A stretch of 64,000 bases of DNA, from positions 1,240,001 to 1,304,000 of the forward strand of contig NZ_FSQW01000002.1 of assembly GCF_900128895.1 (NCBI RefSeq). Direction: 5' to 3'. Source of the stretch: Parasphingorhabdus marina DSM 22363. GTDB lineage: Bacteria > Pseudomonadota > Alphaproteobacteria > Sphingomonadales > Sphingomonadaceae. The notes below the pieces were generated by a model, which was not told the origin of the DNA, did not search any database, and saw only the letters and a list, made by a program, of their open reading frames with translations. Numbering within the stretch: position 1 is the stretch's first letter; the number at the start of each line of letters is the position of its first letter. Shown here in pieces: positions 42,701 to 50,547 of this stretch. The translations under genes were made by a program, and so were the position numbers.

Positions 42701-43228
42701 TCAGGGCATGATCACCGTGTCGATGACATGGATCACGCCGTTTGACGTTTTGATGTCAGCACTGATCACATTGGCGTTGTCGACCTTCACGCCATTGGTT
42801 CCGTCGATGGCAACCGTGGTACCCTGGACAGTCGGGGCTTCGAGGGTCTTGCCCGCAAGGCTCTTTGAATAGACCTTCCCGGAAACGACATGATAGGTGA
42901 GGATGGAAACCAGCTGGTCCTTGTTTTCCGGCTTCAACAGTGTTTCGACGGTGCCAGCGGGAAGTTTGGCAAATGCTTCGTCGGTCGGAGCAAAAACCGT
43001 GAAAGGCCCCTCACTGCGCAGGGTTTGTTCGAGTCCGGCAGCCTGAACAGCAGCCACCAGCGTGTTGAAGGAGCCAGCTCCGACGGCCGTATCTACGATA
43101 TCAGCAGATGCCTTCTTTGCGTGGTCGCCGGCAATGGCGGTATCGGTGGGTACGAGGGTCGCGCTCAACAGGGCGGTGGAGAGAATGGCGGCGGACGCCA
43201 TGCTGGTCATTTTTTGTGCAATATTCAC
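42701..43228 (-). CDS. Secreted fasciclin domain protein
   Basis: 175 aa. Signal peptide (about 1-33) then one FAS1 domain: [17 protein letters not shown], the H1-box-like [39 protein letters not shown], and the C-terminal [16 protein letters not shown]1 proteins mediate adhesion in the envelope or matrix. It is divergent from an ECF sigma/anti-sigma pair across a 196-bp gap, which is an arrangement worth noting (see findings). Confidence 0.94.
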
Positions 43229-43424
43229 GAGAGATTTCCTTTCGGTCTTGGTGGGGGACTTGCTCCCTGACTACGAACCGGCCGGCAAAGTGGATTGCAT
43301 AAAATTGGAAAAAAACTGTGCGCCACAATCAGATTCAAGGAATTCCGCGGAAGAACAGAAAAAATATCTTCCCGATATCATCCAAAATCATCGCTTGACC
43401 GTAGATGGTTTATTGGAGACAAAA

Positions 43425-44069
43425 ATGCGTGAGCAACGACAATATCCGCAGGCAGCATCGGCATCCGGTTTCAAAGGGTCCGCGACTGTGAATGCTTTGC
43501 CCGGACGTGGCGACCGGGATGCGTATCTTATGCAGCGTATAGTAAAGGCGTCCGATCGCTCTGCCCTCGAAGATATTGCCAGTCACTATGCCCCACGATT
43601 AAAGGCGTGGCTGATGTATCGCGGCGAACAGTCCTCGACTGCAGAGGACATTGCGCAGGACGTTATCATCCAGGTGTGGGTCAAGGCTGGCAAATTCGAT
43701 CCTGCGAAAGGGACGTTCTCTGTCTGGGTCTTTCGCATGACCCGCAATTGCTGGATTGATCACAAGCGCAAACATGACCGGCTCCAGCCAACATCCCCCG
43801 ATATCATGTCGATCATGGCCGACGCGCCAGTGGACGCTGCCGATGTTGCCGTCGATCAGAACGAGGCCGCCGAAGCGGTGCAGTCCGAACTGGCCAGATT
43901 GCCCCTCGATCAGAAACAGATGCTGCACCTCGCCTTCTTTGAAGGCCTGTCCCACAGTCAAATAGCGGAGCGCACCGGACTGGCGCTTGGTACGGTCAAG
44001 AGCCGGATCCGCGCCCCGCTCAAAAAAATGCAGAACCGCCTAGAGAATTTTCGTGGAGTTAACCGATGA
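43425..44069 (+). CDS. ECF-type RNA polymerase sigma factor
   Basis: 214 aa from ATG 43425 with GGAG at 7 nt; longer in-frame starts would run into the fasciclin promoter. Sigma region 2 is YAPRLKAWLMYRGEQSSTAEDIAQDVIIQVWVKAGKFDP, followed by FRMTRNCWIDHKRKHDR. Region 4 has LPLDQKQMLHLAFFEGLSHSQIAERTGLALGTVKSRIRAPLKKM. It overlaps the downstream ChrR-like gene by 4 bp (ATGA), which makes that protein the likely anti-sigma factor. This is the ECF11-like, RpoE-ChrR arrangement. Confidence 0.94.
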   Translation: MREQRQYPQAASASGFKGSATVNALPGRGDRDAYLMQRIVKASDRSALEDIASHYAPRLKAWLMYRGEQSSTAEDIAQDVIIQVWVKAGKFDPAKGTFSVWVFRMTRNCWIDHKRKHDRLQPTSPDIMSIMADAPVDAADVAVDQNEAAEAVQSELARLPLDQKQMLHLAFFEGLSHSQIAERTGLALGTVKSRIRAPLKKMQNRLENFRGVNR

Positions 44070-44752
44070 ACATGTCATCTCAGACCGAATTTCATTCCGT
44101 CGATGAGGAATGGCTCGCCTCTTACAGCGCCGGCGGATTGTCACGCGCCAAGCGCCTGCTGATTTCCTGTCAGGCAGCGCTTCGCCCGGAACTGTCGTCC
44201 CGGTTGTCGGCAATGGACGCCGTAGGTGGCGCCTTGCTGCAGTCGGCCCAGGGTGAAGCAGTTTCAGACGGGTTCCTGTCCCGCGTAATGGACAAGCTGG
44301 ACGCTTCTCCGGCGCCTGTGGCGCAGGACGCAAAGGATGACGCCCAGACCGAGCCATCAGCCAGACCGGCATGGATGCCATCGCCTCTGGAGGATTTTCT
44401 CAGCAGGGCCGGGATCGATCTCAAATGGAAGAAACTCGGCTTTGGTGTCGAACGCGCTTCGCTGTCGACCGAGAATGACGAGGAGCTCTACCTCCTGAAA
44501 GCGCGCCCCGGACTAAAAGTGCCTCAACACAGCCACAAGGGCGAAGAATGGGCGCTCATCCTGCAGGGCGGATATCATGTCGGCGAAACCGGATATGGAC
44601 TTGGCGACCTGCACCGCGAAGATGAGGATTGCACCCATATGCCCATCGTCGACGATCATGGCGAAGCGTGCATCACGCTCGTCGCGCTGGAAGGAAAGCT
44701 GAAATTCTCCAACCCGGTAATGAGAATGCTGCGGCCGATTATCGGGATCTAG
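44066..44752 (+). CDS. ChrR-like cupin anti-sigma factor lacking the N-terminal zinc ligands
   Basis: 228 aa. The N-terminal anti-sigma domain (about 1-75) follows Rhodobacter ChrR closely (WLASYSAGGLSRAKRLL, MDAVGGALLQS). At the zinc site, however, ChrR H31, C35 and C38 correspond to Q36, R40 and L43, and H6 corresponds to S11 (next to H10). The C-terminal cupin (about 130-228) keeps its metal ligands: PQHSHKGEEW and THMPI. ChrR releases its sigma factor in response to singlet oxygen. Here the fold is present, but zinc in the N-domain is doubtful. Confidence 0.87.
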   Translation: MNMSSQTEFHSVDEEWLASYSAGGLSRAKRLLISCQAALRPELSSRLSAMDAVGGALLQSAQGEAVSDGFLSRVMDKLDASPAPVAQDAKDDAQTEPSARPAWMPSPLEDFLSRAGIDLKWKKLGFGVERASLSTENDEELYLLKARPGLKVPQHSHKGEEWALILQGGYHVGETGYGLGDLHREDEDCTHMPIVDDHGEACITLVALEGKLKFSNPVMRMLRPIIGI

Positions 44753-44933: not shown

Positions 44934-45242
44934 CTAGTTACCACCCGCACCAAATGACTTTATTTCATCATAAAGTCCTGCCAGCCGCTCGACGCCGAGA
45001 TCTGTTAACACCTGTGACAATCTCTGGAATTCCGGGTTTTTCACCGATGCCATGAACGAATCTTCGGTTTCATAGCGGCCTTTGTTTATTAGAGTGTTCG
45101 GCTGACGGCGGTTACGATAAAGAGTTGAGCCCAAGAAACCTGGCTGCTGTTCCATCCAATCACCGACGGCTGCCCATGCCTTGAGCGCTTCGGTGTCATC
45201 GCCTTCCGGAAGCGTGATGATATTGAAAAATGTATGAGTCAT
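44934..45242 (-). CDS. Antibiotic biosynthesis monooxygenase (ABM) domain protein
   Basis: 102 aa, one ferredoxin-like ABM domain. THTFFNIITLPEGDD, WMEQQPGFLGSTLYRN and RYETEDSFMASVKNPEFQRL are typical. Small ABM proteins are cofactor-free quinol or haem monooxygenases; the lack of a clear haem-ligand pair argues against an IsdG assignment. It is the last gene of the operon 47346-44934 and may act on a quinol or on a product of the NOX-like reductase, which is inference. Confidence 0.85.
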   Translation of the reverse strand: MTHTFFNIITLPEGDDTEALKAWAAVGDWMEQQPGFLGSTLYRNRRQPNTLINKGRYETEDSFMASVKNPEFQRLSQVLTDLGVERLAGLYDEIKSFGAGGN

Positions 45243-45264
45243 GGTTTCTCCTTTTGACTACAGG

Positions 45265-45471
45265 CTATGATTGGGAGTGAACAATGCGCCGGGTCACGAA
45301 CCAGGCGACGGGAAAGCCAAGTATGAAGCCCGCCGTCACGCAGCCAAAGAGTATCGGCAGGCTCGCCGATCCCATGGTGATAACGACCACGACTGCCCCA
45401 AAACCGGTCAGGCAGGATGCCAGAAACTGGATCATGTTGAACAGGAACAGGTTTTGCTTGATCAGTTCCAT
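45265..45471 (-). CDS. Two-TM small membrane protein
   Basis: 68 aa, starting after a strong GGGAGG ribosome site 6 nt upstream of ATG 45471. Two hydrophobic helices (about 9-33 and 38-58) and a basic tail (FVTRRIVHSQS). The architecture is that of small DUF2798-type membrane proteins, but I cannot assign a family with confidence. It lies between the NOX-like reductase and the ABM gene on the same strand. Confidence 0.75.
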   Translation of the reverse strand: MELIKQNLFLFNMIQFLASCLTGFGAVVVVITMGSASLPILFGCVTAGFILGFPVAWFVTRRIVHSQS

Positions 45472-45506
45472 TGGGGCCTCCCTTGTTGTGCTGTTCCCGC
45501 TGTCGA

Positions 45507-46766
45507 TCAGCGAAATTCAAAAGCTTCGGTATGGATTGCATCGCGAGAGACGCCTGCTTTGCGCATGTCCCTCGTCAGACCATTGATCATCGGTTTGGGA
45601 CCGCAGAGGAAATAGCCATATTCGCTGAGCGGTTCAGACAGGTTCTCTTTCATCTTGTCGACCCGCGCAAACTCTCCTTCATTGGATTGCAGCAGCACCA
45701 GCCGGAAATTGGTCATTTCCGCTGCCTTGGCCAGCAATTCATCCAGGAACAGCGCTTCATCCTTTTCGCGAACGGCATAGACAAGCGTGACTTCCCGCAC
45801 GTCGTCCGGTTGCATCGCGCGAACCATCGACAGAAATGGTGTGACTCCGATACCGCCAGCAAACCAGACCTGCTTGCTCCGTGCTTTGCTGGTGTCAAAA
45901 CAGCCATAGGGGCCGCGCACCAGCACTTCTGCGCCGGTTTCAATCTCTTCGCGTACCTTGCGGGTCCAGTCGCCGAGCACTTTCAACGTGAAACGTAATT
46001 TCTCATCAGCAGGCGCGCTGGAGATGGTGAACGGATGGGGCTCTCTCCAGCCTTTGCCCTGCACCTCTACAAAGGCAAATTGACCGGGGCGAAACTCTAG
46101 CGGCTGTTCGAGCGGATTCAAAACCAGTTCGGTCGCACGTTCCAGCGCGTTGACCTTTTCGATCACATAGCGCTTTGCGGTTTTTCGGTTCATCCCGAAA
46201 AGGCTATAGAGCAGTGAGAGTGTACCGATCACGGCAGCAATGATGAGCATTATGCCGGATGGACTGAACCGTTCAAAAAAGACAGCTGGCGCCGTGATAA
46301 AATGTCCTGTGCCCAACAAATAGACCAACCCCATCAGCTTGTGGGGGTTGCGCCAGCGGTGATAGGGGATCTTGCGGTTAAGCGTGATCGCGAGCGCCAA
46401 GATCAGCAATATCATCGACAGCATGCCAAGCGGAGCTGATGGCACAAGTGCATTGGCGATGGGATCGATGCCTTCGGGCAGTTCTTTCGGGATCAAGAAA
46501 AAATGCGCAAGGATAAGCAGCATCGCAAAAATCCCGCAGAATTTGTGCACCTGATACATCCGGTCGAGGCCTCCAAAGAAAGGTTCCAGAAACCGCAGCC
46601 GCGTTGAAAGGAAGATCGAACAGCTCATCAATAAGAATGCCCAGCCGCCAAGCATGCTGGTTCCAACTACCTGTCGCTCGATTTCGGCGGGTGAAAAACC
46701 GAGATGCAGGATGGAAAAAACCAGCAACAAAACGATGATGGCGAGCGATGCCCTTCGCTTCAACAT
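45507..46766 (-). CDS. NOX-like transmembrane flavocytochrome (ferric reductase-like)
   Basis: 419 aa from ATG 46766. About six TM helices carry two bis-histidine haem sites: H74/H88 and H142/H155, i.e. HxnH spacings of 14 and 13, the same as human NOX2 (H101/H115, H209/H222). The cytosolic FNR part has HPFTISSAP (244-252), LGDWTRK, VRGPYGCF, the NAD(P)H motif AGGIGVTP (303-310) and FLCGPKPM. It should pass electrons from NAD(P)H via FAD and two haems across the membrane to O2, metal or quinone. Flanked by an EF-hand lipoprotein gene and a two-TM gene. Confidence 0.9.
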   Translation of the reverse strand: MLKRRASLAIIVLLLVFSILHLGFSPAEIERQVVGTSMLGGWAFLLMSCSIFLSTRLRFLEPFFGGLDRMYQVHKFCGIFAMLLILAHFFLIPKELPEGIDPIANALVPSAPLGMLSMILLILALAITLNRKIPYHRWRNPHKLMGLVYLLGTGHFITAPAVFFERFSPSGIMLIIAAVIGTLSLLYSLFGMNRKTAKRYVIEKVNALERATELVLNPLEQPLEFRPGQFAFVEVQGKGWREPHPFTISSAPADEKLRFTLKVLGDWTRKVREEIETGAEVLVRGPYGCFDTSKARSKQVWFAGGIGVTPFLSMVRAMQPDDVREVTLVYAVREKDEALFLDELLAKAAEMTNFRLVLLQSNEGEFARVDKMKENLSEPLSEYGYFLCGPKPMINGLTRDMRKAGVSRDAIHTEAFEFR

Positions 46767-46797
46767 GGCGCGTTTTCCTTCGTGAGAGAATATAGAT

Positions 46798-47346
46798 TCA
46801 GCTTGTTTTGAGCGCGGAGCGGATCGCCGCAAAGACCGAGAATCCATTCAGGAACTCCGGCTCCTCCAAAATGCCGTTCTGGTTGATATCAATTCGGTCA
46901 AAGTCGCTGCGGATCGCATAGCGATGTTCGGCTTCGGAAATCTTGCCGTCCGTATCCCGGTCCCATAGCGCGAACACGGTCTTCAAAGCGGTGTCATATT
47001 CGCTGCGCCGGTTTGCCGCATCCGCAGCCTGGGAGAAACCATAGTCCCAGCCCGTAAATTCGGCGAGACTGATATCTTTGCTGTCGTCAGCATCCATGGA
47101 TGCGAAAATGTTTGTGCGGTATGTCTCGATATCTCCGGTGTTGAGATATCCCTTCTTGCCATTATCGACCTGGTCAAAGCCCAGGCGCGCGAGTCTTTGC
47201 CCTTCCGTCTTGGCTTCGCCACGCTGCGATTTCTCGAATTTCTGCTTTGCTGGTGCTTCGGTTTCCGACCGCGTGTCACGCTGATCCGGAGCCGTACAGG
47301 CTGGTACCGCAACGAACAGGGGAAGCAAAAAAAGTGCCTTTGACAT
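46798..47346 (-). CDS. EF-hand domain lipoprotein
   Basis: 182 aa. Lipobox VPAC (C17) gives an exported lipoprotein. Four EF-hand loops: a degenerate one at 61-72, and canonical ones starting at D85 (DADDSKDIS), D129 (DRDTDGKIS, ideal) and D153 (DINQNGILE). It should bind calcium in the periplasm. It is the first gene of the operon, 31 bp before the NOX-like reductase, which suggests that it senses calcium for, or buffers it near, the reductase. Eukaryotic NOX5 and DUOX carry EF-hands too, but on the cytosolic side. Confidence 0.92.
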   Translation of the reverse strand: MSKALFLLPLFVAVPACTAPDQRDTRSETEAPAKQKFEKSQRGEAKTEGQRLARLGFDQVDNGKKGYLNTGDIETYRTNIFASMDADDSKDISLAEFTGWDYGFSQAADAANRRSEYDTALKTVFALWDRDTDGKISEAEHRYAIRSDFDRIDINQNGILEEPEFLNGFSVFAAIRSALKTS

Positions 47347-47392
47347 CTTGAGTATCCTCTTAGCTGAATGGGATCAGTGTGGATTTGCCTTT

Positions 47393-47440
47393 AACTTGCA
47401 TATGCTATACTTGCAAGTGCATTTGTTGCGTATACAAGTT
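47393..47440. promoter_or_regulatory. Likely MarR operator region with overlapping palindromes
   Basis: Between the EF-hand operon and marR. It has a perfect palindrome, ACTTGCAAGT (47409-47418), flanked by AACTTG (47393-47398) and its complement CAAGTT (47435-47440). TTGC/GCAA half-sites recur throughout. This is the layout expected of an autoregulated MarR repressor that also controls the divergent operon. Confidence 0.6.
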
Positions 47441-47502
47441 TAATTGCGTTTGCAACTGATTTCAGCGCAACAGTTGCAGCAGGCATGATTTAGGATTATC
47501 CG

Positions 47503-47985
47503 ATGATCGAAAGCAGATATTTGATGGCCAAAATCTCGGCAGGGCAGAAACAGAGGCAATCCAGCTTTGGATTCTTGATGCAGGTGATCGCCCGCCGCAT
47601 TGACGCGACCATGAAAGAAGAACTGGCTAAAATTGACGTCGATGTGAAGCTGTTTGCCAATCTCATGGTGTTGAGCGACAGGGATGGCATCACCCAGAAA
47701 GAACTGGGGCATTTGCTGGAATTTCCAGACTATTTCACAAGCCGCAACGTCGATGCCCTGATTGACGCCGGATTGGCAGAGCGGCGCCCCGATCCAAATA
47801 GCAGGCGTTCAGTATTGGTATTCCTCACAGACAAGGGACGAAAAAAAGCAACCGAGCTTCCGCGGGTAATTCAGAAGGTAAATTCGCAGTTCCTCGAACC
47901 CCTCAAGTCTTCAGAAAAGAAAGCCATCATCCAATTGTTGCACAAAGTGGGTGGCATTCCGGAAGGTGGCGATCCCAATTTGTAA
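47503..47985 (+). CDS. MarR family transcriptional regulator
   Basis: 160 aa from ATG 47503 with AGGA 8 nt upstream. N-terminal dimerisation helices (FGFLMQVIARRIDATMKEEL), then winged HTH: LMVLSDRDGITQKELGHLLEFPDYFTSRNVDALIDAGLAERRPDPNSRRSVLVFLT. The ligand is unknown; MarR proteins often respond to phenolics or oxidants. It lies 156 bp from, and divergent to, the EF-hand/NOX-like operon, so that operon is the probable target. Confidence 0.93.
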   Translation: MIESRYLMAKISAGQKQRQSSFGFLMQVIARRIDATMKEELAKIDVDVKLFANLMVLSDRDGITQKELGHLLEFPDYFTSRNVDALIDAGLAERRPDPNSRRSVLVFLTDKGRKKATELPRVIQKVNSQFLEPLKSSEKKAIIQLLHKVGGIPEGGDPNL

Positions 47986-48109: not shown

Positions 48110-48634
48110 CTAAAACGGAACGTCGTCATCCAGATCATTGTCGAAGGCACCACCGCCCTGGCCGCCTCCGGATCCACCGCCGGTATTACCCCAGCCGTCG
48201 TTCGAGCCGCCACCCTGACCACCGCCGGATGCACCACCACCCCAGCCGTCATTTGAACCGCCGCCCTGGCCGCCACCGCCCTGACGTCCGTCGAGCATGG
48301 TCATGACCGCGCCGGGGCCTTGCAGGACGACTTCGGTCGAATAGCGGTCATTGCCGGACTGGTCCTGCCACTTGCGGGTCTGGAGCTTGCCTTCAAGATA
48401 GACCTTGCTGCCCTTGCGCAGATAGCGCTCGGCGACTCCGGCGAGGCCTTCGGAGAAAATTGCGACGCTGTGCCACTCGGTCTTTTCCTTGCGCTCGCCG
48501 GTATTGCGGTCTTTCCAGTTTTCGCTGGTCGCGACACGCAGATTGCAGACTTTTCCGCCATTGCTGAACGTCCGCACTTCGGGATCAGCGCCAAGATTTC
48601 CCACGATGATGACCTTGTTTACGCTGCCTGCCAT
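48110..48634 (-). CDS. ssb: Single-stranded DNA-binding protein
   Basis: 174 aa from ATG 48634. OB fold (about 1-115): [56 protein letters not shown]. Then a Gly-rich linker with two copies of [13 protein letters not shown], and the acidic tip DLDDDVPF that recruits repair and replication partners. uvrA, the common neighbour in other groups, is not adjacent. feoB lies upstream on the same strand. Confidence 0.97.
48190..48277 (-). repeat. Tandem repeat encoding the SSB glycine-rich linker
   Basis: Two similar units starting near 48190 and 48241 (period about 51 bp) encode the duplicated [13 protein letters not shown] linker of SSB. Linker length in SSB varies freely between species. Confidence 0.7.
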
Positions 48635-48684
48635 TATGCAATTCCCCAGATTTATTGAATGTGTTTCGAGTCTCTGGCGGTTCT

Positions 48685-50547
48685 TTACAGGCCGAGTGCA
48701 ACCGCCGTCCAGTAGGTAATACCGGCCGCGACATAGGCGAGCGCAAAAAGATAGACCAGCATGAAGGTCGGCCATTTCCAGCCATTGGTTTCCCGTTTTG
48801 TCACTGCAATGGTCGAGATGCATTGTGGCGCGAACACAAACCAGGCGAGGAAAGCCAGCGCCATCGGCAGTGTCCAGCGGCTTTGCAGCCTTTCCGTGAG
48901 CGACCGGGCCTCTGCTTCTTCATCCGGCGCATCGATCGCATAGGTCGTGGCCAGTGCCGACACCGCCACTTCGCGGGCGGCCATGGCCGGGATCAGGGCG
49001 AGCGCCATGTCGCGGTTGAAGCCAATCGGCGCGACCACCGGTTCGATGACATTGGCAATCCGCCCGGCTGCCGAATAATCAACCTGGCTCATCGGGCTGT
49101 CGATAGGAACCTTGGGGTAGGTCAGCATCAGCCAAAGCACGACTGTCGCTGCAAAAATGATCGTGCCGGCCCGGCGCAGGAAGATCCATGCGCGCTGCCA
49201 CAGGCCGAGCAATATGTCTCGGATCCGGGGCAGCTGGTATTTCGGCATTTCCATCAGGAATCCGGCATTGGGTCCTTTGGCGACCGTGCTGCGCAGAACC
49301 AGCGCGACGATCATCGCGCCGACTATGCCAAATATGTAAAGCCCGAACAGGACCAGCCCCTGCAGGCCAACACCGCCACCAACGTCGCGAGCCGGAATGA
49401 AGGCGCCAATGATGATCGCATAAACGGGCAGCCGCGCCGCGCAGGTCATCAGGGGGGCGACCAAAATGGTGGTCAGCCGGTCATTGGGATCCGATATGCT
49501 GCGCGTCGCCATGATCCCGGGAATCGCACAGGCGAAGGAGGAAAGCAGCGGAATGAAGCTCCGGCCAGACAGCCCGACGCTGGCCATCAGCCGGTCCATG
49601 ATAAAGGCCGCACGGGTCATGTAACCGCTGGCCTCCAGCAGCAGGATGAACAGGAACAGGATCAGAATCTGCGGCAGGAACACCACCACTGACCCGACAC
49701 CACCGATGGCGCCTTCGATCAGAAAGTCCTTGAAAAACCCGTCGGGCAGCCCGGCTTCGACGGCGGCGGCCGCGATTTCCGTGCCCTGCTCGATCCACCC
49801 GATCGGCGCCTCGGACCAGGCGAAGACCGCCTGGAACATGACAAACAGGATGGCGAGCAGGATGATCGGTCCGGCAACGGGATGCAGGAAAAGCGCATCG
49901 GCCCGCTCCGACCAGCGCCGCCCGGCGGTTTCCGAGACAATGGCCGCCTGAGCGATTTTCTTGGCCTGAAAACGCAGTCCGTGATCCCGTTCCTTCGCCA
50001 CCACCGGCTCCGCAACCGGGGCGTTTCCGGACAGACGGTTTTCGACGGCGGCGGACAGATCCTCCAGTCCCCGGCGGCGGACGGCCACTGTCGGTACGAC
50101 CGGCACGCCGAGCAATTCCTCAAGCTTCGCAGGATCGAGCGTCAGCCCGTCTCTCTCAGCCAGGTCCATCATGTTGAGTGCGATAATGGTCGGTTGCCCC
50201 AGCGCAATAATTTCCAGCGCAAAGCGCAGATGATTGTCGAGATTGGCAGCATCCAGAACCACAATGATCGCGTCCGGCTTCCGCTCGCCATCCTGCGCGC
50301 CCATGATCACGCCACGCGTCACCGCTTCGTCCGGACTGGTTGGATCGAGACTGTAGCTTCCAGGCAAATCGACCAGTTCCGCCGGCCGGCCATTTGGCAG
50401 GGCAAAATGTCCCGCCTTGCGTTCCACTGTCACGCCCGGATAGTTGGCGATTTTCTGACGTGCGCCGGTCAGCGCGTTGAACAGCGCACTTTTTCCGGCA
50501 TTGGGGTTGCCCGCGAGGACAATCAGGGGCGCTGCTTCCGTCATCAT
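48685..50547 (-). CDS. feoB: Ferrous iron transporter FeoB
   Basis: 620 aa. N-terminal G-protein domain (G1 [12 protein letters not shown] about 13-24, G3 DLPGSYSL, G4 NMMD), then a helical membrane domain with the two gate regions ([13 protein letters not shown], and the later [12 protein letters not shown]) and [13 protein letters not shown]. It imports Fe2+ across the inner membrane. It is shorter than E. coli FeoB (773 aa), which is common in alphaproteobacteria. Its ATG shares one base with the feoA TGA. Confidence 0.97.

Follow-up and report, generated by a model that had tools for sequence, protein, structure and literature searches.

A candidate electron-export module in Parasphingorhabdus marina: an SpNOX-type reductase paired with a predicted periplasmic EF-hand protein

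Among described bacterial systems, the closest to the one considered here is SpNOX of Streptococcus pneumoniae (PDB 8qt6, 8qq7), a single chain made of a six-helix haem domain and a dehydrogenase domain that binds flavin adenine dinucleotide (FAD) and nicotinamide adenine dinucleotide (phosphate), NAD(P). The authors of the SpNOX structural study describe the functions of SpNOX and CsNOX as unknown and credit MsrQ alone, among the prokaryotic members of the superfamily, with a clear role (PMC11031084). The present analysis concerns a 64,000-nucleotide stretch of the P. marina genome (3.55 Mb), hereafter the window, at positions 1,240,001-1,304,000 of contig 1. It contains a minus-strand operon (47346 to 44934) for an EF-hand protein, a reductase of the NOX type, a protein with two helices, and an ABM monooxygenase, with marR divergent from it. 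A preliminary description had placed these five genes there, and each of them was recovered with identical coordinates from open reading frames and Pfam scores. Sequence and structural models lead us to propose, with a confidence slightly short of even, that the module exports electrons across the membrane to a periplasmic acceptor, possibly a small quinone or phenolic compound, that the EF-hand protein docks on the reductase or assists its assembly, and that MarR is probably in control.

The reductase (P0002, 419 amino acids, 45507..46766, minus strand) matches the Pfam models Ferric_reduct, FAD_binding_8, and NAD_binding_1, each above its cut-off. An alternative start at 46847 would give a protein of 446 amino acids; the relatives begin at the position of the 419-residue form. 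SpNOX is the best PDB match both by sequence (E 5e-45, residues 38-418) and by fold (TM-score 0.83). In addition, the model of the reductase, with a mean predicted local distance difference test score (pLDDT) of 91.4, has six long helices in its membrane part, which bears out the six-helix NOX-type flavocytochrome proposed at the outset. The FAD and NAD(P) domains are fused and of the FNR type, and they carry the HPFT and GGIG.TPF motifs that define SpNOX-type bacterial NOX proteins. SpNOX and the window's reductase are 26-27% identical in the fold alignment, and the latter belongs to a separate clade with a long stem.

By analogy to NOX2, His74 and His142 would hold the inner haem, and His88 and His155 the outer haem. 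These four histidines, with the NOX2-like spacing of 14 and 13 residues claimed for them, are present in the sequence, as are the FNR motifs HPFTISSAP, which includes the FAD motif HPFT, and AGGIGVTP, the NAD(P) motif. The positions of the NOX2 haem histidines used for this comparison are those given in PMC3591440. The 14/13 spacing, also found in SpNOX, is kept by 76 of the 81 rows of an alignment of bacterial and archaeal sequences, the window's reductase included; the five other rows are two fragments and three sequences with one ligand replaced. Because of this wide occurrence in the alignment, the spacing is a mark of the wider NOX-like family, not of the window's reductase in particular. 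The position of the C-terminal aromatic residue, Phe416, is a Phe in all 81 rows; SpNOX likewise has a C-terminal Phe around F397. Positive charge is found in loop D and after the sixth transmembrane helix (TM6), and negative charge in loops A and C; loops B and E are near neutral. This pattern fits a cytosolic dehydrogenase domain. Transmembrane electron export by the reductase would follow from its family, and it may produce superoxide from NAD(P)H as SpNOX does. All ten members of the clade described below have a His where TM1 ends on the outer side (His21 in the window, 46704-46706); in 45 of the 81 rows a Trp is found there, in a region where the alignment is uncertain.

Zhang et al. (2013) include His119 among four positions indicative of NOX enzymes that make reactive oxygen species (PMC3591440). 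At this place, four residues after the outer haem His of TM3, the window's reductase has Ile92 and five close relatives have Val; a His is found in none of the 79 readable rows, SpNOX included. As for Thr178/Gly179 in TM4, Leu113-Gly114 stands at the likely place, as read by eye beside Gly114; Thr178 is probably absent too, with Leu in its place. The residues of the O2 pocket of SpNOX are themselves described as not conserved (PMC11031084). The absence of His119 would lower the likelihood of an oxidase role and still leave it possible, because SpNOX, which also lacks this residue, makes superoxide.

The partner of the reductase, the EF-hand protein (P0003, 182 amino acids, 46798..47346, minus strand), is recognised by three Pfam EF-hand models above cut-off. 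Its canonical loops were read, on the same strand, at residues 85-96 (47059-47094), 129-140 (46927-46962), and 153-164 (46855-46890), after a degenerate loop at residues 61-72 (47131-47166). The loop register of 24/44/24 fits all 14 EF proteins compared, that of the window included; in all nine EF proteins of the clade the first loop is degenerate and the loops with standard ligands are kept. The leader, read by eye as were all leaders and lipoboxes, ends in a lipobox-like VPAC containing Cys17, the only Cys of the protein, with a Pro at -2 that departs from the strict consensus. Of the nine clade proteins, only that of the window ends its leader with such a motif; the ASAC of the L054 protein, at residues 6-9, also matches but comes too early for the leader of a lipoprotein. 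Thus, of the EF-hand lipoprotein first proposed, the three canonical loops stand, whereas lipoprotein character is not a constant trait of the clade. The export leader nevertheless predicts an outer location, in agreement with the idea of a separate EF-hand protein on the periplasmic side.

This predicted location sets the locus apart from human NOX5 and its cyanobacterial NOX5-like counterparts. The likeness lies in the core fold of NOX (TM-score by query 0.62 with 8u86) and in the association with EF-hands. However, as described for NOX5, the EF domain belongs to the same chain, lies in the cytosol, and touches the dehydrogenase domain (PMC11088703), whereas that of the window is predicted to be periplasmic, is encoded by a separate gene with an export leader, and accompanies a reductase devoid of His119. 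The analogy with a split NOX5 does not hold, and this label misleads.

Exported EF-hand proteins are also represented by lanmodulin, EfhP, and the CaBP of Caulobacter. A Pro at loop position 2 is a lanmodulin trait, and it is missing from the window's protein. In the fold search, the model of the EF-hand protein (mean pLDDT 71.5, a moderate value, with an alignment of five rows) had lanmodulin 8fns as its best match (E 2.4e-3). On the NCBIfam lanmodulin model, P0003 scored 18.3 bits and the protein of locus L049 24.8 bits, far under the cut-off of 135. With such scores and a moderate model, identity with lanmodulin was rejected. CaBP is reported to be periplasmic and to have three EF-hands (PMC13171946). 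Bufferin/MNIO clusters, as described in PMC12452194, include some with EF-hand_5 fusion proteins and a few with ferric reductase-family genes; their precursors have a Cys-rich EGKC part, whereas the window's EF protein has its single Cys in the leader. A further likeness is with MsrQ-MsrP, where a membrane protein with a ferric-reductase domain is described as feeding a periplasmic protein (PMC11031084). MsrP, however, has molybdopterin and is the acceptor, whereas no redox cofactor site is seen in the EF-hand protein.

The pairing of the two genes recurs in other genomes. Genome contigs were scanned with a ten-sequence profile and the best 80 of 572 relatives were taken, six of which are 58-66% identical to the window's reductase. 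Three more genomes with a close reductase were found among 395 genomes of one family, Rhodobacteraceae-like by its other NOX proteins, and one more close reductase, besides that of the window, among 397 genomes of the window's order. A 96-row tree was then considered, made of bacterial NOX-like proteins including S. pneumoniae NOX, with no eukaryotic ferric reductases or NOX among its rows. In this tree, ten close reductases form one clade with a long stem and a Shimodaira-Hasegawa-like approximate likelihood ratio test (SH-aLRT) support of 100. The window's reductase keeps the NOX spacing and is placed, in this tree, among bacterial NOX-like proteins. Taken with the recurrence of the pair, neither of the two refuting conditions named in the preliminary description came true. 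Left out of the tree were L053 (only 299 bases of the locus precede the gene, and its NOX lies in two open reading frames), L125 (fragmentary), L137 (a partial, stop-containing copy from the L135 genome), and the class-level L016, L021, L023, L025-L027, L029, and L030, which were not chosen. Named clade members are Rhodobacterales (Aliiroseovarius and others) and a Roseibium (Hyphomicrobiales), and L138 shares the window's order.

In nine of the ten clade loci (window, L049, L051, L052, L054, L134, L135, L136, and L138), the EF gene lies directly upstream of the NOX gene. By comparison, no open reading frame with at least two EF loops was found within 2 kb in the 74 other NOX loci of the best 80 of 572 relatives, 61 of which have 2 kb on both sides; within 6 kb, one EF-loop frame of 517 amino acids occurs in L068. 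The S. pneumoniae locus, L121, unlike the window, has no frame with two EF loops within 6 kb. The ten clade loci have no common flanking frame above 35% identity at E 1e-15 among mechanically picked open reading frames, the stretches compared being 2.4-6.0 kb per side in the relatives. Because the loci lack common flanking genes in these stretches, the EF-NOX pair seems to persist as a unit. Mean identity in the clade is 71% for NOX and 52% for EF, and the pairwise identities of the two proteins correlate (r 0.83, 36 non-independent pairs). To judge from these sequences, the nine pairs are one association kept through deep divergence, not independent events. Distant NOX-like reductases are also carried by plasmids (L046 and L047 from Psychrobacter, L048 from Salmonella). 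Of 72,556 plasmid records, 952 match the reductase at 1e-5, all with less than 60% identity, but in only 102 does a single place cover at least 80% of the query.

The EF family is also found apart from NOX. A profile search retrieved it in 3 of 387 genomes of the class, the window's included, and in 15 of 199 genomes of family f25 at 1e-12. Of the five f25 relatives better than 1e-50, one is of the NOX type and four (in genomes G271, G605, G446, and G636) have a cytochrome b561 gene next to them. Altogether, EF relatives precede cytochrome b561 in six loci without NOX (L045, L142, L143, L161, L162, and L163). A MarR-type gene stands beside five of these six, the exception being L163, which is broken. 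Hence three elements recur, the EF protein, a membrane b-cytochrome, and a MarR-type gene, the last in 14 of 15 EF loci (nine with NOX and six with cytochrome b561). In genome G636, the cytochrome b561 gene is cut to 56 codons and has transposase-like frames on both sides.

The neighbours of cytochrome b561 include a predicted anthrone oxygenase (PF08592 Anthrone_oxy above cut-off) in L142, L161, and L162. In these loci, from genomes G271, G605, and G446, the oxygenase gene follows the cytochrome gene, and G271 and G446 also have a membrane protein with an FNR domain. Thus L142 and L162 combine the EF protein, cytochrome b561, PF08592, and a membrane-bound FNR protein that gives no match to the ferric-reductase domain; such a set resembles a NOX whose function has been split among several proteins. 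An ABM gene is adjacent in L162, and in L143 (5136-5903, genome G249) an EF domain is fused to an ABM domain in a protein with a leader-like start, followed by cytochrome b561. L045, on a Paracoccus plasmid, comprises MarR, EF, cytochrome b561, and a dioxygenase-like protein (Dioxygenase_C). As a broader and rather unlikely extension, the periplasmic EF family might be a common, exchangeable subunit of NOX-type or b561 b-cytochromes, docking on the outer-haem side through a shape held by calcium and steering electrons to cofactor-free oxygenases that process quinones or phenols, one of them being EF-fused. Among the weak f25 relatives (1e-12 to 1e-14, seven genomes), five were examined, G632 and G533 being left out, and none has a NOX or cytochrome b561 match; neither have the middling relatives G465, G593, and G554. 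In G593 and G554, the EF gene sits between complex I genes. These more distant relatives match at 1e-29 to 1e-33: L165:5976-6569 is between the genes for NuoG and a 2Fe-2S thioredoxin-like subunit, and L166:6821-7438 between those for NuoF and NuoG.

The divergent regulator (160 amino acids, 47503..47985, plus strand) is of the MarR type, as previously claimed (MarR_2, 35.2 bits for a Pfam cut-off of 27). A MarR 56-63% identical to it occupies the same place in eight of the nine relatives, and L052 has two other MarR-type proteins (24-26%). This MarR type is therefore found in nine of the ten clade loci, together with the EF gene in eight. In the divergent promoter region, a 23-base candidate operator, TTGCAAGTATAGCATATGCAAGT (47394..47416, minus strand), was recognised by pattern match. 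Its pattern, which was written from these very sequences, has one match in the window and none in 100 shuffles. The site is found in six of the nine relatives with at most three mismatches, and with 5, 6, and 8 mismatches in L050, L138, and L052, respectively. A second candidate, TGCAACTGTTGC (47467..47478, minus strand), is weak alone, 0.69 occurrences being expected by chance at one mismatch. MarR may bind the 47394-47416 site, and the operon is probably controlled by the divergent regulator. In Campylobacter, a MarR-family protein is reported to control a quinone reductase (PMC8765430).

Considering these elements together, the following mechanism may be envisaged. NAD(P)H would be oxidised in the cytosol and electrons would pass through FAD, the His74/His142 haem, and the His88/His155 haem to the periplasmic face. 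The EF-hand protein, its shape fixed by bound calcium, would dock or assemble at the outer-haem side, where its leader, if it is exported, would place it, and would not act as a calcium switch. Such a role fits better because NOX5 EF-hands act from the cytosolic side, through the NADPH domain, so that the mechanism cannot match. The acceptor would more likely include a small periplasmic redox molecule of the quinone or phenolic type than be O2 alone, because close EF relatives travel with another b-type membrane cytochrome and with oxygenases predicted to act on quinols or anthrones without a cofactor. The operon would be freed by MarR when a quinone or phenolic compound, or another redox signal, is present. 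In favour of a non-O2 acceptor, the SpNOX authors state that the outer haem is openly accessible and that acceptors other than O2 are possible, citing MsrQ-MsrP (PMC11031084). Moreover, 40% of cytochrome c reduction by SpNOX is described as insensitive to superoxide dismutase (SOD) and taken as direct (PMC5676040). Electron uptake by Shewanella is reported to need a YgiN-like protein, for which the authors speculate on a quinone link (PMC8357807).

Several observations weigh against electron export to a quinone or phenolic acceptor with an EF docking partner. The quinone part rests on the family names of neighbours, mostly in cytochrome b561 loci, and the window's own ABM protein has no visible leader and has counterparts in few clade loci. 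Purified SpNOX is reported to make superoxide (PMC5676040), though it also lacks His119. The EF partner is not needed everywhere, L050 (Shimia) having MarR and NOX and no EF gene. In the clade, loop C scores 0.70 and loop E 0.74, the dehydrogenase domain also reaching 0.74, but the four control groups are mixed: both loops score lower in two, only E in one, and both higher in one. Finally, some EF relatives have other company: the two middling ones among complex I genes, those of genomes G018 and G030, next to genes of the LysR and FMN_red families and with no cytochrome b, and two distant EF-hand frames of a Microvirga plasmid (L144:5367-6402), which adjoin a resistance-nodulation-division (RND) pump gene.

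Alternatively, the reductase could generate superoxide without calcium control, to be used as a signal or against compounds or microbes in the vicinity; the EF-hand protein would then be an accessory of unspecified kind. Genes for an extracytoplasmic function (ECF) sigma factor and a ChrR-type anti-sigma factor (TIGR02451 above cut-off) lie at 43062-44752 on the plus strand and run toward the operon's 3′ end. Since such pairs are linked to singlet oxygen, they count in favour of this possibility, but they are outside the conserved unit. Likewise, superoxide production by SpNOX, with cytochrome c reduction lowered by SOD (PMC5676040), argues for it, whereas the missing His119 argues against it, though SpNOX lacks this residue too. 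On balance, such a role is possible and on the unlikely side.

A second alternative would keep the sense of a split NOX5: the EF-hand protein would sense periplasmic calcium and turn on a superoxide-producing enzyme. The sequence and fold homology with SpNOX, the standard ligands kept in the EF loops, and the pairing in nine of ten clade loci are all compatible with it. However, marine bacteria probably experience saturating external calcium, the same EF family precedes cytochrome b561 in loci without NOX, none of the 79 readable rows has the 119 His (Ile92 here), and Leu113 stands, by eye, at the likely place of Thr178. Although SpNOX is reported to make superoxide (PMC5676040), it is also described as constitutively active, and the EF-hand protein is predicted to be across the membrane from the dehydrogenase domain, the described target of NOX5 EF-hands (PMC11088703). 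Calcium gating appears improbable.

A ferric or other metal reductase supplying Fe2+ to FeoB also has a low likelihood. Beyond marR, the minus strand carries ssb and feoB (48110-50547, feoB itself at 48685-50547), and the Pfam Ferric_reduct match would suit such a role. So would the lack of His119, a residue that separates NOX from metalloreductases in eukaryotes (PMC3591440), and the reported tie between the EF-hand protein EfhP of P. aeruginosa and iron uptake (PMC11559002). However, feoB lies near none of the nine other clade loci in the stretches compared, the regulator is of the MarR type, and purified SpNOX is reported to give no Fe3+ reduction in the presence of SOD (PMC5676040). With a neighbourhood that is not conserved in these stretches, the iron reading based on feoB was rejected. 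Lastly, that EF and reductase genes moved together once as passengers with no joint function is very improbable: all nine pairs belong to one clade and may trace to one event, and the EF gene is missing in L050, but the pair has been kept at 71% and 52% mean identities without common flanks, and the EF loops remain intact. A phage or defence origin was discarded, the four operon proteins having no match at 1e-3 in PHROGs or PADLOC and the EF-hand protein, in a single-protein query, no relative confirmed in viral contigs.

Of the four genes presented at the outset as one unit, the two besides the EF-NOX pair are optional. The two-helix membrane protein (P0001, 68 amino acids, 45265..45471, minus strand) has no family above cut-off; two helices were read from its sequence and one long hydrophobic stretch was computed. 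Its gene is found in three of the ten clade loci (window, L054, and L136). The ABM-fold monooxygenase (P0004, 102 amino acids, 44934..45242, minus strand; 37.9 bits for a Pfam cut-off of 23.1) is found in two, the window and L052; L052 encodes a second ABM protein with a leader-like start. In L049 (7340-7819), L138 (7210-7680), L054, and L135, NOX is followed by the gene for a membrane-type protein, some 156 amino acids long, that matches no Pfam family. A reductase and an ABM-fold quinol monooxygenase are also associated in E. coli, where MdaB and YgiN reportedly sustain a quinone redox cycle (Adams and Jia 2005, as cited in PMC8357807). MdaB is soluble, whereas the window's reductase spans the membrane and its ABM protein is optional.

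The operon has a G+C content mostly of 0.50-0.54, versus 0.55-0.63 in its surroundings. Among 60 genomes, own included, three matched the reductase at 1e-20; the two besides the own genome are only 27 and 30% identical, and a reductase of the window's subfamily is found in the own genome only. The operon likely arrived horizontally. A clean empty site was not obtained, relatives of chrR (1e-30) being present in 2 of 17 same-genus genomes, both with other surroundings.

In the open-access literature searched, sampled in part, no description of such a gene set was found. With this module, a bacterial NOX gains a conserved partner that can be tested on its acceptor side. A regulator and its candidate operator come with it, and the neighbouring genes give a hint of the substrate. 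In this predicted arrangement, EF-hands would meet NOX from the side of the membrane opposite to that used in NOX5.

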